From: a virus
Direction: 5' to 3' (one strand)
Length of the DNA stretch: 21,662 bases
IMG/VR virus record: IMGVR_UViG_3300006484_000070
Location: 1-21,662 of that record
This document shows, piece after piece, positions 1 to 20,873 of the stretch (position 1 is the first letter of the stretch; each line of letters opens with the position of its first letter). A model generated the notes under the pieces. It did not search any database and had not been told where the DNA came from. It saw only the letters and a list, made by a program, of their open reading frames with translations. The translations under genes and the position numbers were made by a program.

Positions 1-234
1 TGGCAGGAGGATGGAAGACAACAGACCTACGGCTTTGTGGCTCAGGAACTTAATGAGGTGGTTCCAGAAGCAGTAAGACCTGCGGAAGAAGAAGAAGATC
101 AGGTGTGGATGGTTAAACACGCGAAGCTAGTGCCTTTGCTAACAAAAGCCATCCAAGAACAACAAGCCACTATTGAATTACAGGCAGCAGCAATAACTGA
201 CCTGACTACGAGACTAACAGCATTGGAGAAATAA
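1..234 (+). CDS. Tail fibre/spike C-terminus, S74-type chaperone domain (5' end outside window)
   Basis: The frame is open from base 1 and ends at TAA 232-234, so only the last 77 residues are visible. They begin WQEDGRQQ, followed by YGFVAQELNEVVPEAV. This matches the conserved G-F-I-A-Q-E-V...P-E-A-V core of the peptidase S74 (endosialidase-type) intramolecular chaperone. The segment AKLVPLLTKAIQEQQATIE and a leucine-rich helix follow, as in the C-terminal coiled coil of that domain. In this family the domain trimerises the fibre or spike and then cleaves itself off; the catalytic serine would lie upstream of the window. An internal ATG at 37 is only a methionine-free artefact of a later start and I do not take it as the gene start. 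This is the only + strand gene seen, so it marks the edge of the structural gene block. Which receptor the fibre binds cannot be told. Confidence 0.82.
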   Translation, partial: WQEDGRQQTYGFVAQELNEVVPEAVRPAEEEEDQVWMVKHAKLVPLLTKAIQEQQATIELQAAAITDLTTRLTALEK

Positions 235-3255: not shown

Positions 3256-4096
3256 TTATTTTTTCCTTAATTAAAATACTTTGACACTTACTCTGAATGT
3301 CCTTTATATTTTCTTCACCTATTGCTTGCTCACAAAACCCTAGTAAATCCATCAATTCAAAGTTTAGAATTAGCTTTTCTTTGTTGTCATTTAAACTCTG
3401 AATATATTTATACTTACTACTGATTGGACAGGCATCATAGATATCAAATAAATTACCATACTTATGTAATAGGTCACAGGCTCTTTTAGGCCCAATACTT
3501 GGAATCCCTGGAATGTTGTCTCCAGAGTCTCCATTCAAACATTTAATAGTAATATAGTCTTCTATGCTGTAGTCGTGCGTCTCACGCCAGTTTTCAAAAG
3601 TAGTTTCAGATCTTGTTGTATAAGCAAATCTAGACACGTTTTCGCTTATTAGCAAATCCCAGTCTCTATCAGAGCTTACCATCCATATGTGATCTGCTTC
3701 AATTCTAGTTGATATATACGCTGCAATATCATCTGCCTCAACACCATCATACTGTAATACGATATATTTTTCTGCTAGTAACTCTAGCGTCTTTTCCATC
3801 TCTTGATAAAATTGTACGAAAGAATCCTTTTCTTCTTGAGTTTGCTTCTCATACCTCTCTTTTCTAGAGAGCTTATACTCAGGATATCTTTCTTTCCTAT
3901 AACTACTGCTTCCTTTATCACAAGCGATAATTACTTTGTCGCACTTATAGGAACTAGCTAAAGACTGTACTGTTTTAAGGTAGTCTTCAGCAAATTCTGT
4001 TCTATTAGAGTGCTTCCATCTAAACCCAAGGTTTAGTGCATCAATAATTATTGCATTATTGTGCGATTGCTGAAACTTCAGAAATGTTTTGCCCAT
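3230..4096 (-). CDS. 5'-3' exonuclease / flap endonuclease (T5 D15-like)
   Basis: This 288-residue FEN-family nuclease probably removes RNA primers and 5' flaps during lagging-strand synthesis. Metal-binding acidic residues appear in order: D19 (IIIDALN), D60 (ACDKGSS), E120, D122 and D123 (GVEADDIAAY), D143 and D145 (SSDRDWD), and D190 and D193 (GDSGDN). The helix-3-turn-helix DNA-binding segment NIPGIPSIGPKRACDLL (194-210) follows. The family A polymerase in this window has no 5'-3' exonuclease domain, so this protein supplies the missing activity, as D15 does in T5. The start overlaps the preceding nuclease gene by 41 nt and the end overlaps nrdA by 26 nt. The ATG at 4096 has only a weak GGA upstream, consistent with coupling. 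Confidence 0.95.
   Translation of the reverse strand: MGKTFLKFQQSHNNAIIIDALNLGFRWKHSNRTEFAEDYLKTVQSLASSYKCDKVIIACDKGSSSYRKERYPEYKLSRKERYEKQTQEEKDSFVQFYQEMEKTLELLAEKYIVLQYDGVEADDIAAYISTRIEADHIWMVSSDRDWDLLISENVSRFAYTTRSETTFENWRETHDYSIEDYITIKCLNGDSGDNIPGIPSIGPKRACDLLHKYGNLFDIYDACPISSKYKYIQSLNDNKEKLILNFELMDLLGFCEQAIGEENIKDIQSKCQSILIKEKISEARLHTG
3281..3310 (+). promoter_or_regulatory. Possible antisense sigma70-like promoter inside flap-nuclease gene
   Basis: TTGACA at 3281-3286 is followed, after an 18-nt spacer, by TATATT at 3305-3310 on the + strand. This is a full -35 and a 5/6 -10 match. It would transcribe against the minus-strand operon. No + strand gene follows, and in an AT-rich genome such a match can arise by chance, so confidence is low. 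Confidence 0.2.
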
Positions 4097-13483: not shown

Positions 13484-13489
13484 TTATAT

Positions 13490-13518
13490 ATTATCTCAAA
13501 ATTTAAGGAAAATGTCAA
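13490..13518 (-). promoter_or_regulatory. Promoter P2 (sigma70 type), -35 overlaps thyX stop
   Basis: Read on the minus strand: TTGACA at 13518-13513, a 17-nt spacer, GATAAT at 13495-13490. The TGA stop of thyX (13517-13515) is inside the -35 box. It would drive primase, polymerase and helicase. The flanking AATAGTTC upstream of the -35 matches P4 exactly. Confidence 0.9.
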
Positions 13519-14159
13519 GAACTATTTTTAAGTGGGAATACATTAGCTATAACTTCTGCTACCGCTAAGGCTATATCCATATGTTCCTTCTGTGTTCCGT
13601 TTTCTTTCCTTAAATCAATATAGTGAATCCAGCTTCTTAAAGTACCATTCATATACATCCTACTTATAGTATTTCCCTCTGGAAGCACAGCTCTAGCCTG
13701 CTCTTTTGCAATACCATTATCAATTGCCCACCTATAAGCTTTTGTTGACGCTTCTATGACTTCTCTCTGGCGTTTATGCCATTCAATTTCTAATCCGTCA
13801 TTATCTGCCTCTATACTGTTCTGCCTGTTCTTAGGATCTTGTAAACGTGCTTGCCTAGTCTCGAAACTTAAGTCTTCTGTAGGATCAGCATAACGCTGAC
13901 TAAACTCTTGAAACGAAAAAGAACGGTGACGAAGTATCTGTCGTGCAATATCTCTAGTTGTTTCAATTTCTAAACAAACACTGACCATCTCTAGAGGGCT
14001 CCAGTGTTGGTGCTTCATCAAGTACTTTACAAGTTTTTCACTTGTTTCTTTATTGTTTTGATTATCTGGGTTACTTACTCTAGCACAATATGCCACTAAG
14101 TCCAACGCTGACTCATTGTAATCTGGTGCTTGTGAGTGACTAATAAGTTTTACGTTCAT
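13515..14159 (-). CDS. thyX: FAD-dependent thymidylate synthase ThyX
   Basis: The 214-residue enzyme methylates dUMP to dTMP with methylene-tetrahydrofolate, using FAD and NADPH. The signature R77-H-R79 followed by seven residues and S87 (RHRSFSFQEFSQRY) is complete. W53-S-P-L (HWSPLEM) near the N-terminus and the C-terminal RSWIHYIDLR, which binds dUMP in this family, are also present. Unlike ThyA, ThyX gives tetrahydrofolate rather than dihydrofolate, which pairs well with the SHMT gene upstream in the operon. The ATG at 14159 directly follows the stop of the small lipoprotein gene. Its last bases form part of promoter P2. Confidence 0.96.
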   Translation of the reverse strand: MNVKLISHSQAPDYNESALDLVAYCARVSNPDNQNNKETSEKLVKYLMKHQHWSPLEMVSVCLEIETTRDIARQILRHRSFSFQEFSQRYADPTEDLSFETRQARLQDPKNRQNSIEADNDGLEIEWHKRQREVIEASTKAYRWAIDNGIAKEQARAVLPEGNTISRMYMNGTLRSWIHYIDLRKENGTQKEHMDIALAVAEVIANVFPLKNSS

Positions 14160-14282
14160 TTAATAAATCATCCAGTCGCTGCTATAAACTTCAAGCCTTT
14201 CTTTTACAGAGCAAGAATTGAGCACAAAAGCCAATACAACTAAAATTAGTACTCCTCCCCATAGTTTTTTTAAATCATCCAT
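14160..14282 (-). CDS. Small predicted lipoprotein (40 aa)
   Basis: This 40-residue frame fills the gap between the oxygenase gene and thyX. It begins MDDLKKLWGG, continues with the hydrophobic stretch VLILVVLAFVLNSC and ends VKERLEVYSSDWMIY. Positively charged K5-K6, a hydrophobic core at 11-21 and L21-N-S-C24 form a plausible lipoprotein signal with lipidation at C24, leaving a 17-residue mature peptide. The D2-D3 at the N-terminus is unusual for a signal peptide. Its start overlaps the oxygenase stop by 8 nt (ATGGATGA) and its stop TAA abuts the thyX ATG, the pattern of a real gene in this operon. The ribosome site (GAAAG) is weak. T5 carries a small early lipoprotein (Llp) that blocks superinfection; a similar role here is only a suggestion. 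Confidence 0.68.
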   Translation of the reverse strand: MDDLKKLWGGVLILVVLAFVLNSCSVKERLEVYSSDWMIY

Positions 14283-14820
14283 TTAATTCTTTCGTCCATA
14301 TTGTTAGTGAGTATTTAGTACCCGATGTTATAGGAGTACTACGATGTGGATGTGTGATCTTACTAGGCCAAGTTAGTAATTGGCCTACCTCAACATCCTT
14401 GTTAGAAAATTTTTGTCTAGGAAACTCTAATAATCCCCCAGTGTAAGAGTCGCACAGTTTTACACTGCCACTAATAAAACTCTCGTCGTGGTGAAGATCA
14501 AGAGACCTCTGTCCATCCATGTGGTATTTTATAGCAAATATAGTATCTGTTGCAAACTCATCTATATCCCAATAGTGCTGAGCCCAAGGCCATATTCTTT
14601 GATCTAGATGTGTATTCAACTGTCCGAATAGATCTGGGATTGAGTCTTCTAATAGTACATCTCTAGTCTTATATCTGTCACCGTGATTAGACGTCCACTC
14701 TTGTCCTTGTATTGCCTGTATAATGAAGTCGCAAAACTCTTTCGTCATAAAGTCATAGACTATAAAGTCATTCTTCAGCGTAGAAGGGTTAATATATTTC
14801 GGAAAAGCTTCGCCTAGCAA
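14275..14820 (-). CDS. 2-oxoglutarate/Fe(II)-dependent oxygenase (prolyl-4-hydroxylase-like), TTG start
   Basis: The 181-residue double-stranded beta-helix oxygenase has an iron site made of H110-x-D112 (LDLHHDES) and probably H159 (ITHPHRST). K169 (SGTKYSL) is in place to hold the 2-oxoglutarate carboxylate, where R is more common. YTGGLLEFPRQ and VGQLLTWPS are core strands typical of the P4Hc/phage oxygenase group. These enzymes hydroxylate protein side chains, nucleobases or small molecules; the substrate cannot be told. The start is TTG 14820 because AGGAG lies 6 nt upstream and no in-frame ATG exists before residue 25. It overlaps the Coq4-like gene by 7 nt and the lipoprotein gene by 8 nt. 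Confidence 0.88.
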   Translation of the reverse strand: MLGEAFPKYINPSTLKNDFIVYDFMTKEFCDFIIQAIQGQEWTSNHGDRYKTRDVLLEDSIPDLFGQLNTHLDQRIWPWAQHYWDIDEFATDTIFAIKYHMDGQRSLDLHHDESFISGSVKLCDSYTGGLLEFPRQKFSNKDVEVGQLLTWPSKITHPHRSTPITSGTKYSLTIWTKELNG

Positions 14821-15407
14821 AACATACTCCTAACCTCACGCACTTGCATACCCAATATAGTTTCCCAATCTAAAATCTCTATTCTAGATAGTCGTTGTCC
14901 TTTTCGGTACGCAGAGAGCAAAAGAGCAGGAGAGCTTCCATATCTCCAAGCTATAGAAAGAGCTATAAGAAGAAATCCCAAGTTTCTAGACTGAGAAAAC
15001 TGAAACATAGCTACTTGCATTTCGCCTTTTAGTGAGGAGTCATATCCTAGAATAATATGTAAAAGCTCGTGAGAAGCTAACATTCTTTGTAGTAAAAATG
15101 CATTAGTATTTGTCGCCTCATACGACCCTAGGGCAAAGTATTCTCTAGTGTCTATTTCCCAGTAAGTGCAGTACGCTCTATAATACTCGGCAACGGAACC
15201 TTCTTTAAACTCTGTGATATTGTCTATGTAGTCTATTAGACTTACTTTTTCTTCTAGAACTCTTTTGCCTACCTTACTGTTCTCAAATAACTCCGCATTT
15301 TTAGCGCGACTGCCTGCTGCAAACATATAAAGCAATCTCCAGTACAGCGCTGGAGTATTCGGCTCTTTACATAGTCCTATAAATAGTTTTGCTGCATCTT
15401 TTATCAT
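14814..15407 (-). CDS. Coq4-like protein
   Basis: The 197-residue, largely helical protein has the signature H113-E-L-L-H117, then eleven residues, then E129 (SHELLHIILGYDSSLKGE). This is the HDxxHx11E metal-binding motif of Coq4 with D changed to E. The context also fits: an R-x-x-x-S before the motif, G121-Y after it, G128-E129, and a following AMFQFSQSRN like the conserved A-F-x-x-x-Q stretch of Coq4. Coq4 acts in ubiquinone synthesis, where it has been linked to oxidative decarboxylation of the ring. I know of no established role in phages. It sits between a MazG-like gene and an oxygenase gene and overlaps the latter by 7 nt. Alternatives are an unrelated helical metalloprotein, for example a zinc HExxH-like enzyme, but HELLH here lacks the usual metzincin context. 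Confidence 0.7.
   Translation of the reverse strand: MIKDAAKLFIGLCKEPNTPALYWRLLYMFAAGSRAKNAELFENSKVGKRVLEEKVSLIDYIDNITEFKEGSVAEYYRAYCTYWEIDTREYFALGSYEATNTNAFLLQRMLASHELLHIILGYDSSLKGEMQVAMFQFSQSRNLGFLLIALSIAWRYGSSPALLLSAYRKGQRLSRIEILDWETILGMQVREVRSMFC
14827..14831 (-). promoter_or_regulatory. Ribosome binding site for a TTG start
   Basis: AGGAG on the minus strand, 6 nt before TTG 14820, decides the start of the oxygenase. It lies inside the end of the Coq4-like gene. Confidence 0.72.
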
Positions 15408-15420
15408 TTATTCTATTCCA

Positions 15421-15678
15421 TTACTCGTAGTTTACTTTAGACATTTTAAGGTGTCTCTGGTTCTCTAATACTTCTACTACATCTTGATCTATATCGTAAG
15501 ATTCTATTAGAATATTAAGCATAGCTCGTACATCTGCTATTTCTTCAATTAGATTCTTCCTGTACTTAGGATCTCTTTCTGTACCATGACGCAGTACTTT
15601 AGAGCAAGCTCTTACCAATTCTCCACATTCTTCCATAGCGAGTATAAGAGCTTTATTTTTTGTCATTGAGTCTATCAT
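15421..15678 (-). CDS. MazG-like nucleotide pyrophosphohydrolase
   Basis: The 85-residue all-helical protein carries the MazG metal-binding pattern E16-E17-x-x-E20 (AMEECGELVRA) and, 25 residues later, E46-x-x-D49 (EEIADVRAML). The family hydrolyses (d)NTPs to monophosphates, either to balance dNTP pools or to lower alarmone levels in infected cells; which of these applies is unknown. It is a single-domain form, a third of the size of E. coli MazG. Its start overlaps the preceding small gene by 26 nt. M5 is an alternative start but neither has a strong ribosome site. It belongs with ThyX, SHMT and NrdAB as part of the nucleotide module. Confidence 0.88.
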   Translation of the reverse strand: MIDSMTKNKALILAMEECGELVRACSKVLRHGTERDPKYRKNLIEEIADVRAMLNILIESYDIDQDVVEVLENQRHLKMSKVNYE

Positions 15679-15820
15679 TCTTTTCTACAAATTCCGTTAG
15701 TATACTAATTACTCCAGCCTGAACAATGGCTTGTAGTGCTACAGGTGTCATTTCCAATGTTATAATAGCGGAGCCATCCTTGTGTTCTACAACCTCTAAT
15801 ACTTCTACTTCATCATCCAT
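15653..15820 (-). CDS. Small acidic protein of unknown function (55 aa)
   Basis: This 55-residue frame fills the gap between SHMT and the MazG-like gene. It begins MDDEVEVLEVVEHKDGSAII, continues TLEMTPVALQAIVQAG and VISILTEFVEKND, and ends in lysines. The layout of an acidic beta-hairpin, a D-G-S-A turn, then a helix ending in small hydrophobics, resembles short hypothetical proteins common in phage genomes. No function is known to me. AGGA lies 8 nt before the ATG. The start overlaps the SHMT stop by 8 nt (ATGGATGA) and the end overlaps the MazG-like gene by 26 nt, so it is very likely real. Confidence 0.75.
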   Translation of the reverse strand: MDDEVEVLEVVEHKDGSAIITLEMTPVALQAIVQAGVISILTEFVEKNDRLNDKK

Positions 15821-16973
15821 TGTTATTTCCTATAATCTGGTGTATCATATCCGCCAGAGATTTAAACCATTCGGCATCATGTCCTTTAGTAGTTTCTGCA
15901 GCAGTACCTAACCTAATACCACTTGTTTTTAGAAATCCGCGGGGATCATTAGGTATGCCATTTTTGTTTACTGTAATGCCATTATCTTCTAGTAGATCTG
16001 CTGCGGCTCTTCCACTAACACCTTGCTTTGTAAGATCTAGCAAGATCAAATGGGAGTCTGTGCCCCCAGTCATACAAGTAAACCCTAATTCTGTTAGTCT
16101 AGAAGAAAAAGCTCTTGCATTCCCTAGTACATTATTTGCATATTGGACGAAAGAATCTGAGTTTGCTTCTATAAAACATTGAGCTTTGCCCGCAATCATA
16201 TTCATGAGAGGTCCTCCTTGAGTACCTGGGAATACTGCATTATTTATGCGTCTGCTATAATCCTCATTATTCCACAATATGATACCTCCGCGCGGACCTC
16301 GTAGTGTTTTATGGGTAGTGCTTGTAACTACGTCAGCATAATCAACTGGGTTATCGTAACACCCACCTGCTATAAGCCCTGAGTAGTGTGCCATATCAAC
16401 GAGTAGATACGCGCCTACTGAGTTTGCAATCTCCCTAAATCTTGCCCAGTTAATCTGTCTCGGGTACGCACTAGCACCTGCAACAATCATCTTAGGGTTA
16501 ATTACTTTTGCTTGTTCTTCTATAGCGTCATAATCTAAGAAACCTTCTTCATCTACAAAATAAACATGGGATTCATAGATCTTGCCAGAGAGATTCACCT
16601 TCGCGCCATGCGATAGATGTCCTCCACTAGCAAGATCCATGCCCAAAATCTTGTCGCCAGGTTCTAAGAATGCCTGATAAACAGCTGTATTGGCGTTAGC
16701 ACCCGAGTGGGGCTGTACATTTGCAAAGTTAGACTTAAATATCTCGTTAACTTGCCTAATCGCTAACTCCTCGATAGCATCCATATTAGCACATCCGTTA
16801 TAATAGCGCCTTCCTGGGTAGCCTTCGGCATACTTATTTGTAAAAATACTACCACAAAGATCCATAATTGCTTGACTTGTATAGTTTTCACTAGCTATAA
16901 GCTCTATTGTATTGTCTTGCCGTATTTGTTCGTTGTTTAAAATCTGTCGTATTCTTGTATCTATTTCACTCAT
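15813..16973 (-). CDS. glyA: Serine hydroxymethyltransferase
   Basis: The 386-residue PLP enzyme converts serine and tetrahydrofolate to glycine and methylene-tetrahydrofolate. The PLP lysine is K222 in TSTTHKTLRGPRGG, with D193 (LVDMAH) contacting the ring nitrogen. Other hallmarks are ELIASENYTS (24-33), NKYAEGYPGRRYY (46-58), QPHSGANAN (87-95), and TSGIRLGTAA near the end. It is somewhat shorter than E. coli GlyA (about 417) but every core block is present, so it should be active. Its product is exactly the substrate of ThyX encoded 1.7 kb downstream. The start overlaps the helicase stop by 8 nt (ATGAGTGA), with GGAAG upstream. Confidence 0.97.
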   Translation of the reverse strand: MSEIDTRIRQILNNEQIRQDNTIELIASENYTSQAIMDLCGSIFTNKYAEGYPGRRYYNGCANMDAIEELAIRQVNEIFKSNFANVQPHSGANANTAVYQAFLEPGDKILGMDLASGGHLSHGAKVNLSGKIYESHVYFVDEEGFLDYDAIEEQAKVINPKMIVAGASAYPRQINWARFREIANSVGAYLLVDMAHYSGLIAGGCYDNPVDYADVVTSTTHKTLRGPRGGIILWNNEDYSRRINNAVFPGTQGGPLMNMIAGKAQCFIEANSDSFVQYANNVLGNARAFSSRLTELGFTCMTGGTDSHLILLDLTKQGVSGRAAADLLEDNGITVNKNGIPNDPRGFLKTSGIRLGTAAETTKGHDAEWFKSLADMIHQIIGNNNG

Positions 16974-19095: not shown

Positions 19096-19860
19096 TTAAA
19101 TCTCCAAAATATTAGTAATAATTTTAATTCCTGCTGCTTCAGCTTTTTTTGTTTTGCTGGAAGCAACTCCGCTTTCGTTTACTAGAATAGTAGTGTTCTT
19201 AGTAACATTGTCTTTGAGTGTGTATCCTCTACCTTCAAGATAAGGCCCTGCTTCTGCCTTAGTCTTAAATGTGGTGAGTTTACCGGAGATCACTACTTCT
19301 CCTAGTTGTTGGGTTCTCACTTTTCGTTCTCGGTTTAGTTCCCAAGTAAAAGGTAGTAAAGCCCAATTTGTTGTAGATTTCCACTTTAGAATACTCTCAG
19401 TTGTTTTAGGTCCGATACCTGCTTTATTACAAGCTTCAGCATCTATATCACTTACATGAAATATATGCTCACATAACTTCTCTGAGGCAGTTCGGCCAAA
19501 CAAAGGTATTGAGAAGGCGGGTAGTAGCTCTTGCAGTCCTACATTTTTACTATCTTCTATTTGTGTGAGTAGTTTGTCCGAGAGCGATTTACTACCCAAC
19601 CTATTCTCAATATCTGAATACTCTAGCGAATAAATCTCTTCAATAGAGGAAATCCCTAGCTTTTCAATTGTTTTTGGGCCTAAACCCTTAATCTTGAGAA
19701 CCTGAGCAAAATTATGAATTACTTTCTCCACCTTAGCGTCACAAGAGTCGCTTACACAAAACAGTTGATCGTTATTCCAGATCAATGCCGTGTTACAACT
19801 CGGACAGACAGTTGGTGGTACTATTTCTTTCAAAGGTTGTTCTTTTCTCAAAATGTGCAT
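19096..19860 (-). CDS. NAD+-dependent DNA ligase, C-terminal subunit (Zn finger, HhH, BRCT)
   Basis: The 254-residue protein equals the second half of bacterial LigA. A four-cysteine zinc finger is C19, C22, C35 and C40 (CPSCNTAL, FCVSDSC). HhH repeats follow (LKIKGLGPKTIEKLGI, NKAGIGPKTTESIL). A BRCT domain (about 180-254) contains QLGEVVISGKLTTF and KAEAAGIKIIT. It must act together with the separately encoded adenylation/OB subunit; T5 also has a two-part ligase. The ATG at 19860 is 2 nt past the P3 -10 box, so messages from P3 would start after it. A TTG at residue 4 or 10 is an alternative start for these, upstream of the zinc finger, with no clear ribosome site. It ends 1 nt before the D5-like gene begins. 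Confidence 0.9.
   Translation of the reverse strand: MHILRKEQPLKEIVPPTVCPSCNTALIWNNDQLFCVSDSCDAKVEKVIHNFAQVLKIKGLGPKTIEKLGISSIEEIYSLEYSDIENRLGSKSLSDKLLTQIEDSKNVGLQELLPAFSIPLFGRTASEKLCEHIFHVSDIDAEACNKAGIGPKTTESILKWKSTTNWALLPFTWELNRERKVRTQQLGEVVISGKLTTFKTKAEAGPYLEGRGYTLKDNVTKNTTILVNESGVASSKTKKAEAAGIKIITNILEI
19101..19105 (-). promoter_or_regulatory. Ribosome binding site deciding D5-like start
   Basis: GGAGA on the minus strand, 6 nt before ATG 19094, favours the 241-residue form over a 265-residue extension that would run into the ligase gene. Confidence 0.78.
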
Positions 19861-19862
19861 AT

Positions 19863-19891
19863 ATTATACCAAATAGGGTTTCAAAAGTCAA
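19863..19891 (-). promoter_or_regulatory. Promoter P3 (sigma70 type), between ligase halves
   Basis: Read on the minus strand: TTGACT at 19891-19886, a 17-nt spacer, TATAAT at 19868-19863. The -10 is a perfect consensus. It shares TCTTGACTTTT-like flanks and the 17-nt spacing with P1, P2 and P4 but the spacer differs more. It would drive the ligase C-terminal subunit and the D5-like gene up to the terminator at 18322-18347. Confidence 0.87.
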
Positions 19892-19904
19892 GATTTATTT
19901 TTTA

Positions 19905-20873
19905 CTAGGTGCGTCCTATTATGCGAGGAATTATATCGCCAGAGCGTATAACTTGGACCTCACATCCAATTTCTAACCCTAAATCTTTGATGTATGCTAT
20001 GTTATGTAAAGTTGCTCTACTTATCATAGCACCTTCAATCTCTACAGTATCTAGTATCGCTACTGGTGAAACTACTCCTGATTTACCTACCTGCCAAACT
20101 ACATCTAAAAGTGTAGTATTTACTGCTTCTTTCTGTACCTTCAAGGCATAAGCACCACGAGGGTGGTGTGCCGTATGGCCCATCTTACTGTAAGTTTTAT
20201 TACAGTCTATACGCCATACTGTACCATCGTGAGGAAATTCACTGTAGTTAGATTGTAATACATTTCTAAAGCCTTCACCTCGTAACTTCTCCATATCATT
20301 ACAATATGTATCGGTAAGCGAAGGAGAGACTCCGTGAACAACGAAAGAGAGATTACGAGAGAGAAACTCACGTACATCCTTCAAGTTTAATGCACCTGCA
20401 GCATAATTACGTGCGTTGGGTATAGTTTTGGGAGAGACTATCTCTCCCGTAATCTGCAAAAGTTGTTGTGTATTTATTTTTCTAGGGGCTAAGTAGCAAG
20501 TAGGGTTGAGAAACTTATTAGTAATATCAATACCCTCTTTTCCATCTCCTCTAGTTAGTACTTGTACTAACTCTCCACCTTCATATGTTAAGGCAATGGA
20601 AGCTCCATCTAGTTTAGATGTTACTACGATACTATCTTTGCCTATATTAGCCAGAGGGGGAGTTTCGCCACTACCCTGAATGTGCTTTTGTAAGCTATAC
20701 ATTCGATATGTATGTGGTACCCTCTCCCCCTCTAGGTTAGCATATCCTACAGTAGACCAGCCATTAGCAACTGCAAGAGCATCAAACTCTTCATCAGTCA
20801 TAATAGGGCTGCCTTCATAGTAAGCCTTACTAGCTTTCTCTAAAGTTTGTTGTGCATCTGGTCTTACTTTCAT
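19905..20873 (-). CDS. NAD+-dependent DNA ligase, N-terminal subunit (adenylation and OB domains)
   Basis: The 322-residue protein equals the first half of bacterial LigA. A short Ia-like NMN-binding region (YYEGSPIMTDEEFDAL, 18-33) is followed by the nucleotidyltransferase motifs K87-L-D-G90 (adenylated lysine), T107-R-G-D-G, G143-E144, and KVQKEA. The OB fold (about 258-322) contains GVVSPVAILDTVEIEG, ISRATLHNIAYIKDLG and VQVIRSGDIIPRIIGRT. It stops exactly at the OB/zinc-finger junction, where the partner subunit begins after promoter P3. The Ia domain looks shortened by about half compared with E. coli LigA. The ATG at 20873 overlaps the preceding stop by 4 nt (ATGA). It is a two-gene ligase rather than a frameshift, because the second gene has its own start and promoter. 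Confidence 0.92.
   Translation of the reverse strand: MKVRPDAQQTLEKASKAYYEGSPIMTDEEFDALAVANGWSTVGYANLEGERVPHTYRMYSLQKHIQGSGETPPLANIGKDSIVVTSKLDGASIALTYEGGELVQVLTRGDGKEGIDITNKFLNPTCYLAPRKINTQQLLQITGEIVSPKTIPNARNYAAGALNLKDVREFLSRNLSFVVHGVSPSLTDTYCNDMEKLRGEGFRNVLQSNYSEFPHDGTVWRIDCNKTYSKMGHTAHHPRGAYALKVQKEAVNTTLLDVVWQVGKSGVVSPVAILDTVEIEGAMISRATLHNIAYIKDLGLEIGCEVQVIRSGDIIPRIIGRT

Follow-up and report, generated by a model that had tools for sequence, protein, structure and literature searches.

Coq4 is best known for its part in ubiquinone synthesis in human mitochondria. It was long regarded as a scaffold, reports of it as an enzyme being only recent, and to our knowledge quinone chemistry is the sole chemistry reported for the family. 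Reviews assign the C1 oxidative decarboxylation in coenzyme Q synthesis to COQ4 (PMC11495197, PMC12938788), and it has been proposed to organise the CoQ complex of eukaryotes (PMC11495197). The structure of the Nostoc homologue Alr8543 (6E12) was solved with oleic acid and holds Mg2+ bound at H120, D121, H124 and E136 (PMC9774615). Bacterial ubiquinone is considered limited to Pseudomonadota and one class of Desulfobacterota (PMC13386864), and the ubiG gene carried by Baltic Sea viruses is a precedent for a phage ubiquinone gene (PMC9301287).

The window analysed here is an entire IMG/VR record of 21,662 bases. For the predicted Coq4-like gene within it, hereafter P0001, the coordinates given by the original prediction held, but the strand did not: the gene, an ORF of 197 aa, lies on the minus strand (Table 1), and the plus strand of this interval is full of stops. 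Along the minus strand, the DnaB-like helicase, SHMT and MazG-like genes precede P0001 in that order, and the 2OG-Fe(II) oxygenase, ThyX, primase and PolA genes follow it, which bears out the nucleotide and replication setting that had been claimed. The end of the MazG-like gene and the ATG of P0001 are separated by 13 bases, and the TTG start of the oxygenase gene overlaps the end of P0001 by 7 bases, with an AGGAG motif ahead of the TTG. Judging from these junction sequences, the oxygenase is probably translationally coupled to P0001, and the spacing, overlap and AGGAG motif together suggest that the MazG-like gene, P0001 and the oxygenase gene are probably co-expressed.

The interval between dnaB and primase (window positions 13484-16965; loci L101-L130) is a variable cargo slot in the T5-like group. 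In the window it is filled by the SHMT, MazG-like, Coq4, oxygenase and ThyX genes; in PolA relatives it carries genes that read as sulfotransferase-like, ParB-like, epimerase-like and methyltransferase-like, and Coq4 was found in none of 31 PolA-related records. RNR alpha matched Pelagibacter phages at 66-67%, pointing to a marine setting. No ubi gene was recognised among the scanned window genes, and neither Rfam nor tRNA scanning gave a match in the window. Elsewhere in the window, two adjoining ORFs (254 and 322 aa; 19096-20873) resemble halves of an NAD-dependent DNA ligase on reading, and a short ORF on the plus strand at the edge of the window (37-234), with no Pfam match, has an end that by eye resembles a tail-fibre C terminus.

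Table 1 Features of the P0001 locus and of the second viral Coq4 operon
Feature	Position	Strand and start	Evidence
Coq4-family protein P0001, 197 aa	14814..15407	minus, ATG at 15407	Pfam PF05019; AF2 model and Foldseek; leave-one-out profile
2OG-Fe(II) oxygenase	14275..14820	minus, TTG start	Pfam PF13640 28.6 bits; PHROG_61 84.5 bits
MazG-like nucleotide pyrophosphohydrolase	15421..15678	minus	PHROG_4856 59 bits
Serine hydroxymethyltransferase (SHMT, glyA), cargo interval of P0001	15813..16973	minus	Pfam PF00464 490 bits
ThyX flavin-dependent thymidylate synthase, cargo interval of P0001	13515..14159	minus	Pfam PF02511 147 bits; TIGR02170 156.8 bits
DnaB-like helicase, primase, PolA	same run as P0001	minus	named by sequence reading and phage matches
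Capsule-like/X12110/optional Coq4 operon	L089:1620-4173; L100:8149-10639; L224:5090-7661; others		

The Pfam Coq4 model PF05019 matched residues 42-194 of P0001 with 37.3 bits (E 2.3e-9) against a gathering cut-off of 22.9, and a search in genome mode gave 35.9 bits. A genome scan for relatives returned 190 stretches at E <= 1e-3, and 80 were kept. In a leave-one-out test, P0001 scored 103.5 bits against a query-free profile of 64 homologues and 94.2 bits against a bacteria-only profile, the alignment of the homologues having included the query; the highest score among 1000 shuffles was 5.4 bits, and that of any other segment of the window 4.2 bits. The motif of P0001 is HELLH-x11-E (H113, E114, H117 and E129), and H[DE]xxHx11E occurred in none of 1000 shuffles of the protein. 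H113, H117 and E129, exactly the residues that had been named, are the only invariant positions across the 65-sequence alignment. Position 114 is Glu in P0001, as the original prediction had also remarked, and Asp in all 64 homologues; the change is conservative, and E114 is itself a possible metal ligand. P0001 further departs from the family consensus at positions 110 (R), 111 (D) and 125 (D), and shares 18-26% identity with the aligned homologues. Sequence and fold thus support the proposed placement of P0001 in the Coq4 family, of which it is a divergent viral representative.

The AlphaFold2 model of P0001 is nearly all helical (pLDDT 91, pTM 0.88) and, having been built on an alignment containing family members, does not give fully independent evidence for the family. 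The chief test posed for the prediction had been whether its structure matches Coq4, and Foldseek against the PDB returned two Nostoc Coq4 homologues, 6e12 (TM 0.77, E 1.7e-5) and 3msq (TM 0.67); the best-ranked non-Coq4 structure, at rank 4, had a TM of 0.15, and beyond 6e12 and 3msq no query-normalised TM exceeded 0.25 among the 50 matches listed. H113, E114 and H117 lie on the predicted helix 101-120 and E129 near the beginning of helix 126-140; these four are the equivalents of the Mg2+ site residues of 6E12. From this helix layout and the 6e12 match, H113, H117 and E129 would be expected to cluster. P0001 may bind a metal and may associate with membranes; the stretch LGFLLIALSIAWRYG at residues 143-157 is very hydrophobic.

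We then compared P0001 with its bacterial relatives, many of the nearest of which are Myxococcota. Among 32 genomes holding a Coq4 relative, several of them incomplete MAGs, UbiG scored above cut-off in 14 and not above it in 18. The UbiG-positive genomes have loci labelled Pseudomonadota/Proteobacteria or their orders; those with no UbiG above cut-off are mostly Myxococcota and include Polyangium and Pyxidicoccus isolates. TetR, SDR and hydrolase families were the commonest neighbours of the bacterial relatives (93 proteins scanned), and no ubi family was among the 25 commonest, ORF calling being crude in these GC-rich genomes. Since 18 of the 32 genomes gave no UbiG above cut-off and no ubi family was among those commonest neighbours, Coq4 membership does not imply ubiquinone synthesis, and the family is broader than ubiquinone. 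On sphingomonad plasmids (L004:3920-4717 and L005:3920-4717), Coq4 stands beside nitronate monooxygenase, acyl-CoA dehydrogenase, P450 and ferredoxin genes in what looks like a catabolic cluster.

Scans of viral contigs found no close viral relatives of P0001, and PHROGs, BFVD (a structure search with the P0001 model gave no match at E <= 0.001) and annotated phages yielded no counterpart. The tblastn matches in Bacteroides phage (E 0.4), which fall within a 793-aa protein, were rejected, as the whole record contained no Coq4 match. The search of phage genomes suggested in the original prediction thus yielded no close relatives, but it did yield a second viral family. Coq4 was present in 2 of 50 ThyX-related records, an alignment-based scan for viral Coq4 gave 12 records, and a scan with the upstream gene, X12110, gave 29 IMG/VR records, with Coq4 directly behind X12110 in 18 (two cut by the contig end) and absent from 11. 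In these 11 records, about 130 bases separate X12110 from a convergent GT29-like (sialyltransferase-like) gene. The gene order is a long Ser/Thr-rich fibre-like gene, the capsule-like gene, X12110 and Coq4, then the convergent GT29-like gene, SDR, ThyX, radical SAM and RNR; no such fibre/capsule-like/X12110/Coq4 cassette occurs in the 21,662-base window. One related phage carries AhpC/TSA peroxiredoxin and acyl carrier protein genes by Pfam (L032:56-577 and 3475-3711), and L012 apparently has both too.

All complete second-family copies that we read keep HDxxHx11E. By a simple count, dN/dS was 0.06-0.14 among the better separated close members and 0.24-0.40 for the remaining pairs, of which several approach saturation of dS. 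The second viral family is under purifying selection, and Coq4 is optional in these phages, with clean presence and absence. Neither PHROGs nor annotated phages held a counterpart of this group, and the family, with its canonical motif, is new. In a 68-row tree, the viral Coq4 proteins form one group (95/86), which belongs to a set of 28 rows (98/99) that includes 18 bacterial ones, Pseudomonadota being nearest. Because long branches meet in this tree (as the program warned; the P0001 branch is 4.18), a single viral origin is suggested only and the grouping may be false; in an earlier tree, which contained fewer viral sequences, P0001 fell between the phage group and bacteria.

As the best explanation, we tentatively propose that P0001 is an optional cargo Coq4 enzyme of a T5-like marine phage, with a metal site acting on a host isoprenoid or aromatic lipid and with a quinone precursor as the lead substrate. 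P0001 would most likely be made during infection together with the oxygenase, whose expression appears coupled to its own, sit at the host inner membrane and use its predicted metal site on such a lipid. Our guess for the leading substrate is polyprenyl-4-hydroxybenzoate, the ubiquinone precursor whose C1 carboxylate is replaced by a hydroxyl in the known COQ4 reaction. A quinone precursor is ranked first because quinone chemistry is the only chemistry reported for the family, the viral branch lies next to Pseudomonadota and phages with ubiG are known. The cargo character is favoured by the variable slot and by the presence and absence of Coq4 in the second family. Against the quinone reading stand the Asp-to-Glu change and the other altered conserved residues of P0001, the relatives in genomes without ubiG, beside TetR, SDR and hydrolase genes, the lack of any other recognised ubi gene in the window, the long branches behind the viral grouping, and the capsule-like and glycosyltransferase-like neighbours of the second viral family. 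Keeping respiration running during infection, as originally suggested, would be a plausible role for P0001.

The alternative that survives best, which we hold possible but doubtful, is a Coq4-family enzyme acting on a non-quinone substrate (host envelope, glycan-carrier or other membrane lipid) and serving surface or tail modification instead of respiration. In the 18 records of the second family, Coq4 ends a tightly packed operon that converges on the GT29-like gene, and this placement beside capsule-like and glycosyltransferase-like genes points away from quinones; the bacterial relatives in genomes with no UbiG above cut-off, whose commonest neighbours include no ubi family, favour the same alternative. 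However, P0001 has another location, flanked by the MazG-like and 2OG oxygenase genes; the capsule-like gene scored short of the cut-off (E 0.038), the model of X12110 is poor (pLDDT 40), and the family's reported chemistry concerns quinones. In profile searches against the PDB, neither X12110 nor the capsule-like protein rose above chance-level matches. It is unlikely that marine T5-like phages have a Coq4 branch of their own whose substrate, outside quinone synthesis, is a membrane lipid, polyprenyl-linked or of another kind, connected with glycans of the tail fibre or host surface.

We give little probability as well to P0001 being a lipid- and metal-binding scaffold without catalysis, which would stabilise or disturb the host quinone-synthesis complex. 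The proposal that Coq4 organises the CoQ complex of eukaryotes (PMC11495197) fits such a protein, and the Asp-to-Glu change could weaken catalysis while the fold is kept; however, retention of H113, H117 and E129 at so low an identity suggests that the predicted metal site is in use, and the second viral family keeps the full motif. That P0001 is a metalloenzyme with a nucleotide or DNA base as its substrate is more improbable still. The ThyX, SHMT, MazG-like and 2OG oxygenase neighbours might suggest such a substrate, as might the tight packing with the MazG-like gene and the coupled oxygenase, but the characterised fold relative binds a lipid (PMC9774615), other phages of the group carry unrelated cargo in the dnaB-primase interval, and the second viral family lies outside any nucleotide operon. 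The modified-base substrate raised in the original prediction found no support beyond the neighbours, which sit in a variable cargo slot. Although HELLH fits HExxH, a zincin-type zinc metalloprotease is hardly credible and was rejected on fold, since the model matched Coq4 in the PDB search, where no protease scored meaningfully, and the motif aligns at the Coq4 ligand position.

Literature searches, thin on subscription papers and so weak evidence of absence, found nothing linking Coq4 and phages, in agreement with the earlier statement that no phage function has been described. The phage versions are small natural Coq4 variants, one of them with an altered putative metal ligand, and the natural presence/absence series provides a handle on what the fold does. 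If P0001 acts on quinones, phages would interfere directly with the host respiratory carrier; if its substrate is not a quinone, Coq4 would have a role beyond quinones.

Compared with the Coq4 proteins of PF05019 (human COQ4 and yeast Coq4), P0001 has in common the match over residues 42-194, the position of the metal motif and the helical layout, and it differs in having Glu for Asp in HDxxH, in being phage-borne and in having no ubi genes beside it. Alr8543 of Nostoc (6E12) and the Nostoc punctiforme protein 3MSQ are its best PDB fold matches; they are cyanobacterial proteins of unproved function, share 14% identity with P0001 and, unlike it, have Asp in the metal motif. Should P0001 belong to ubiquinone synthesis, UbiN of Rhodobacter capsulatus, a decarboxylative hydroxylase, would perform the same chemical step, although UbiN is a flavin monooxygenase and thus another kind of enzyme; UbiN is functional in an E. 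coli K-12 ubiD ubiH double deletion (PMC10626278). The phage Coq4 group (L032/L089 to L100, L224 to L228 and others) belongs to the same family as P0001 and likewise comes from T5-like marine phages, which have RNR, ThyX, SbcC/D and exonuclease genes in common with the window; in contrast to P0001, its members have the canonical HDxxH and stand at the end of the fibre/capsule-like operon, at ~20% identity to P0001.
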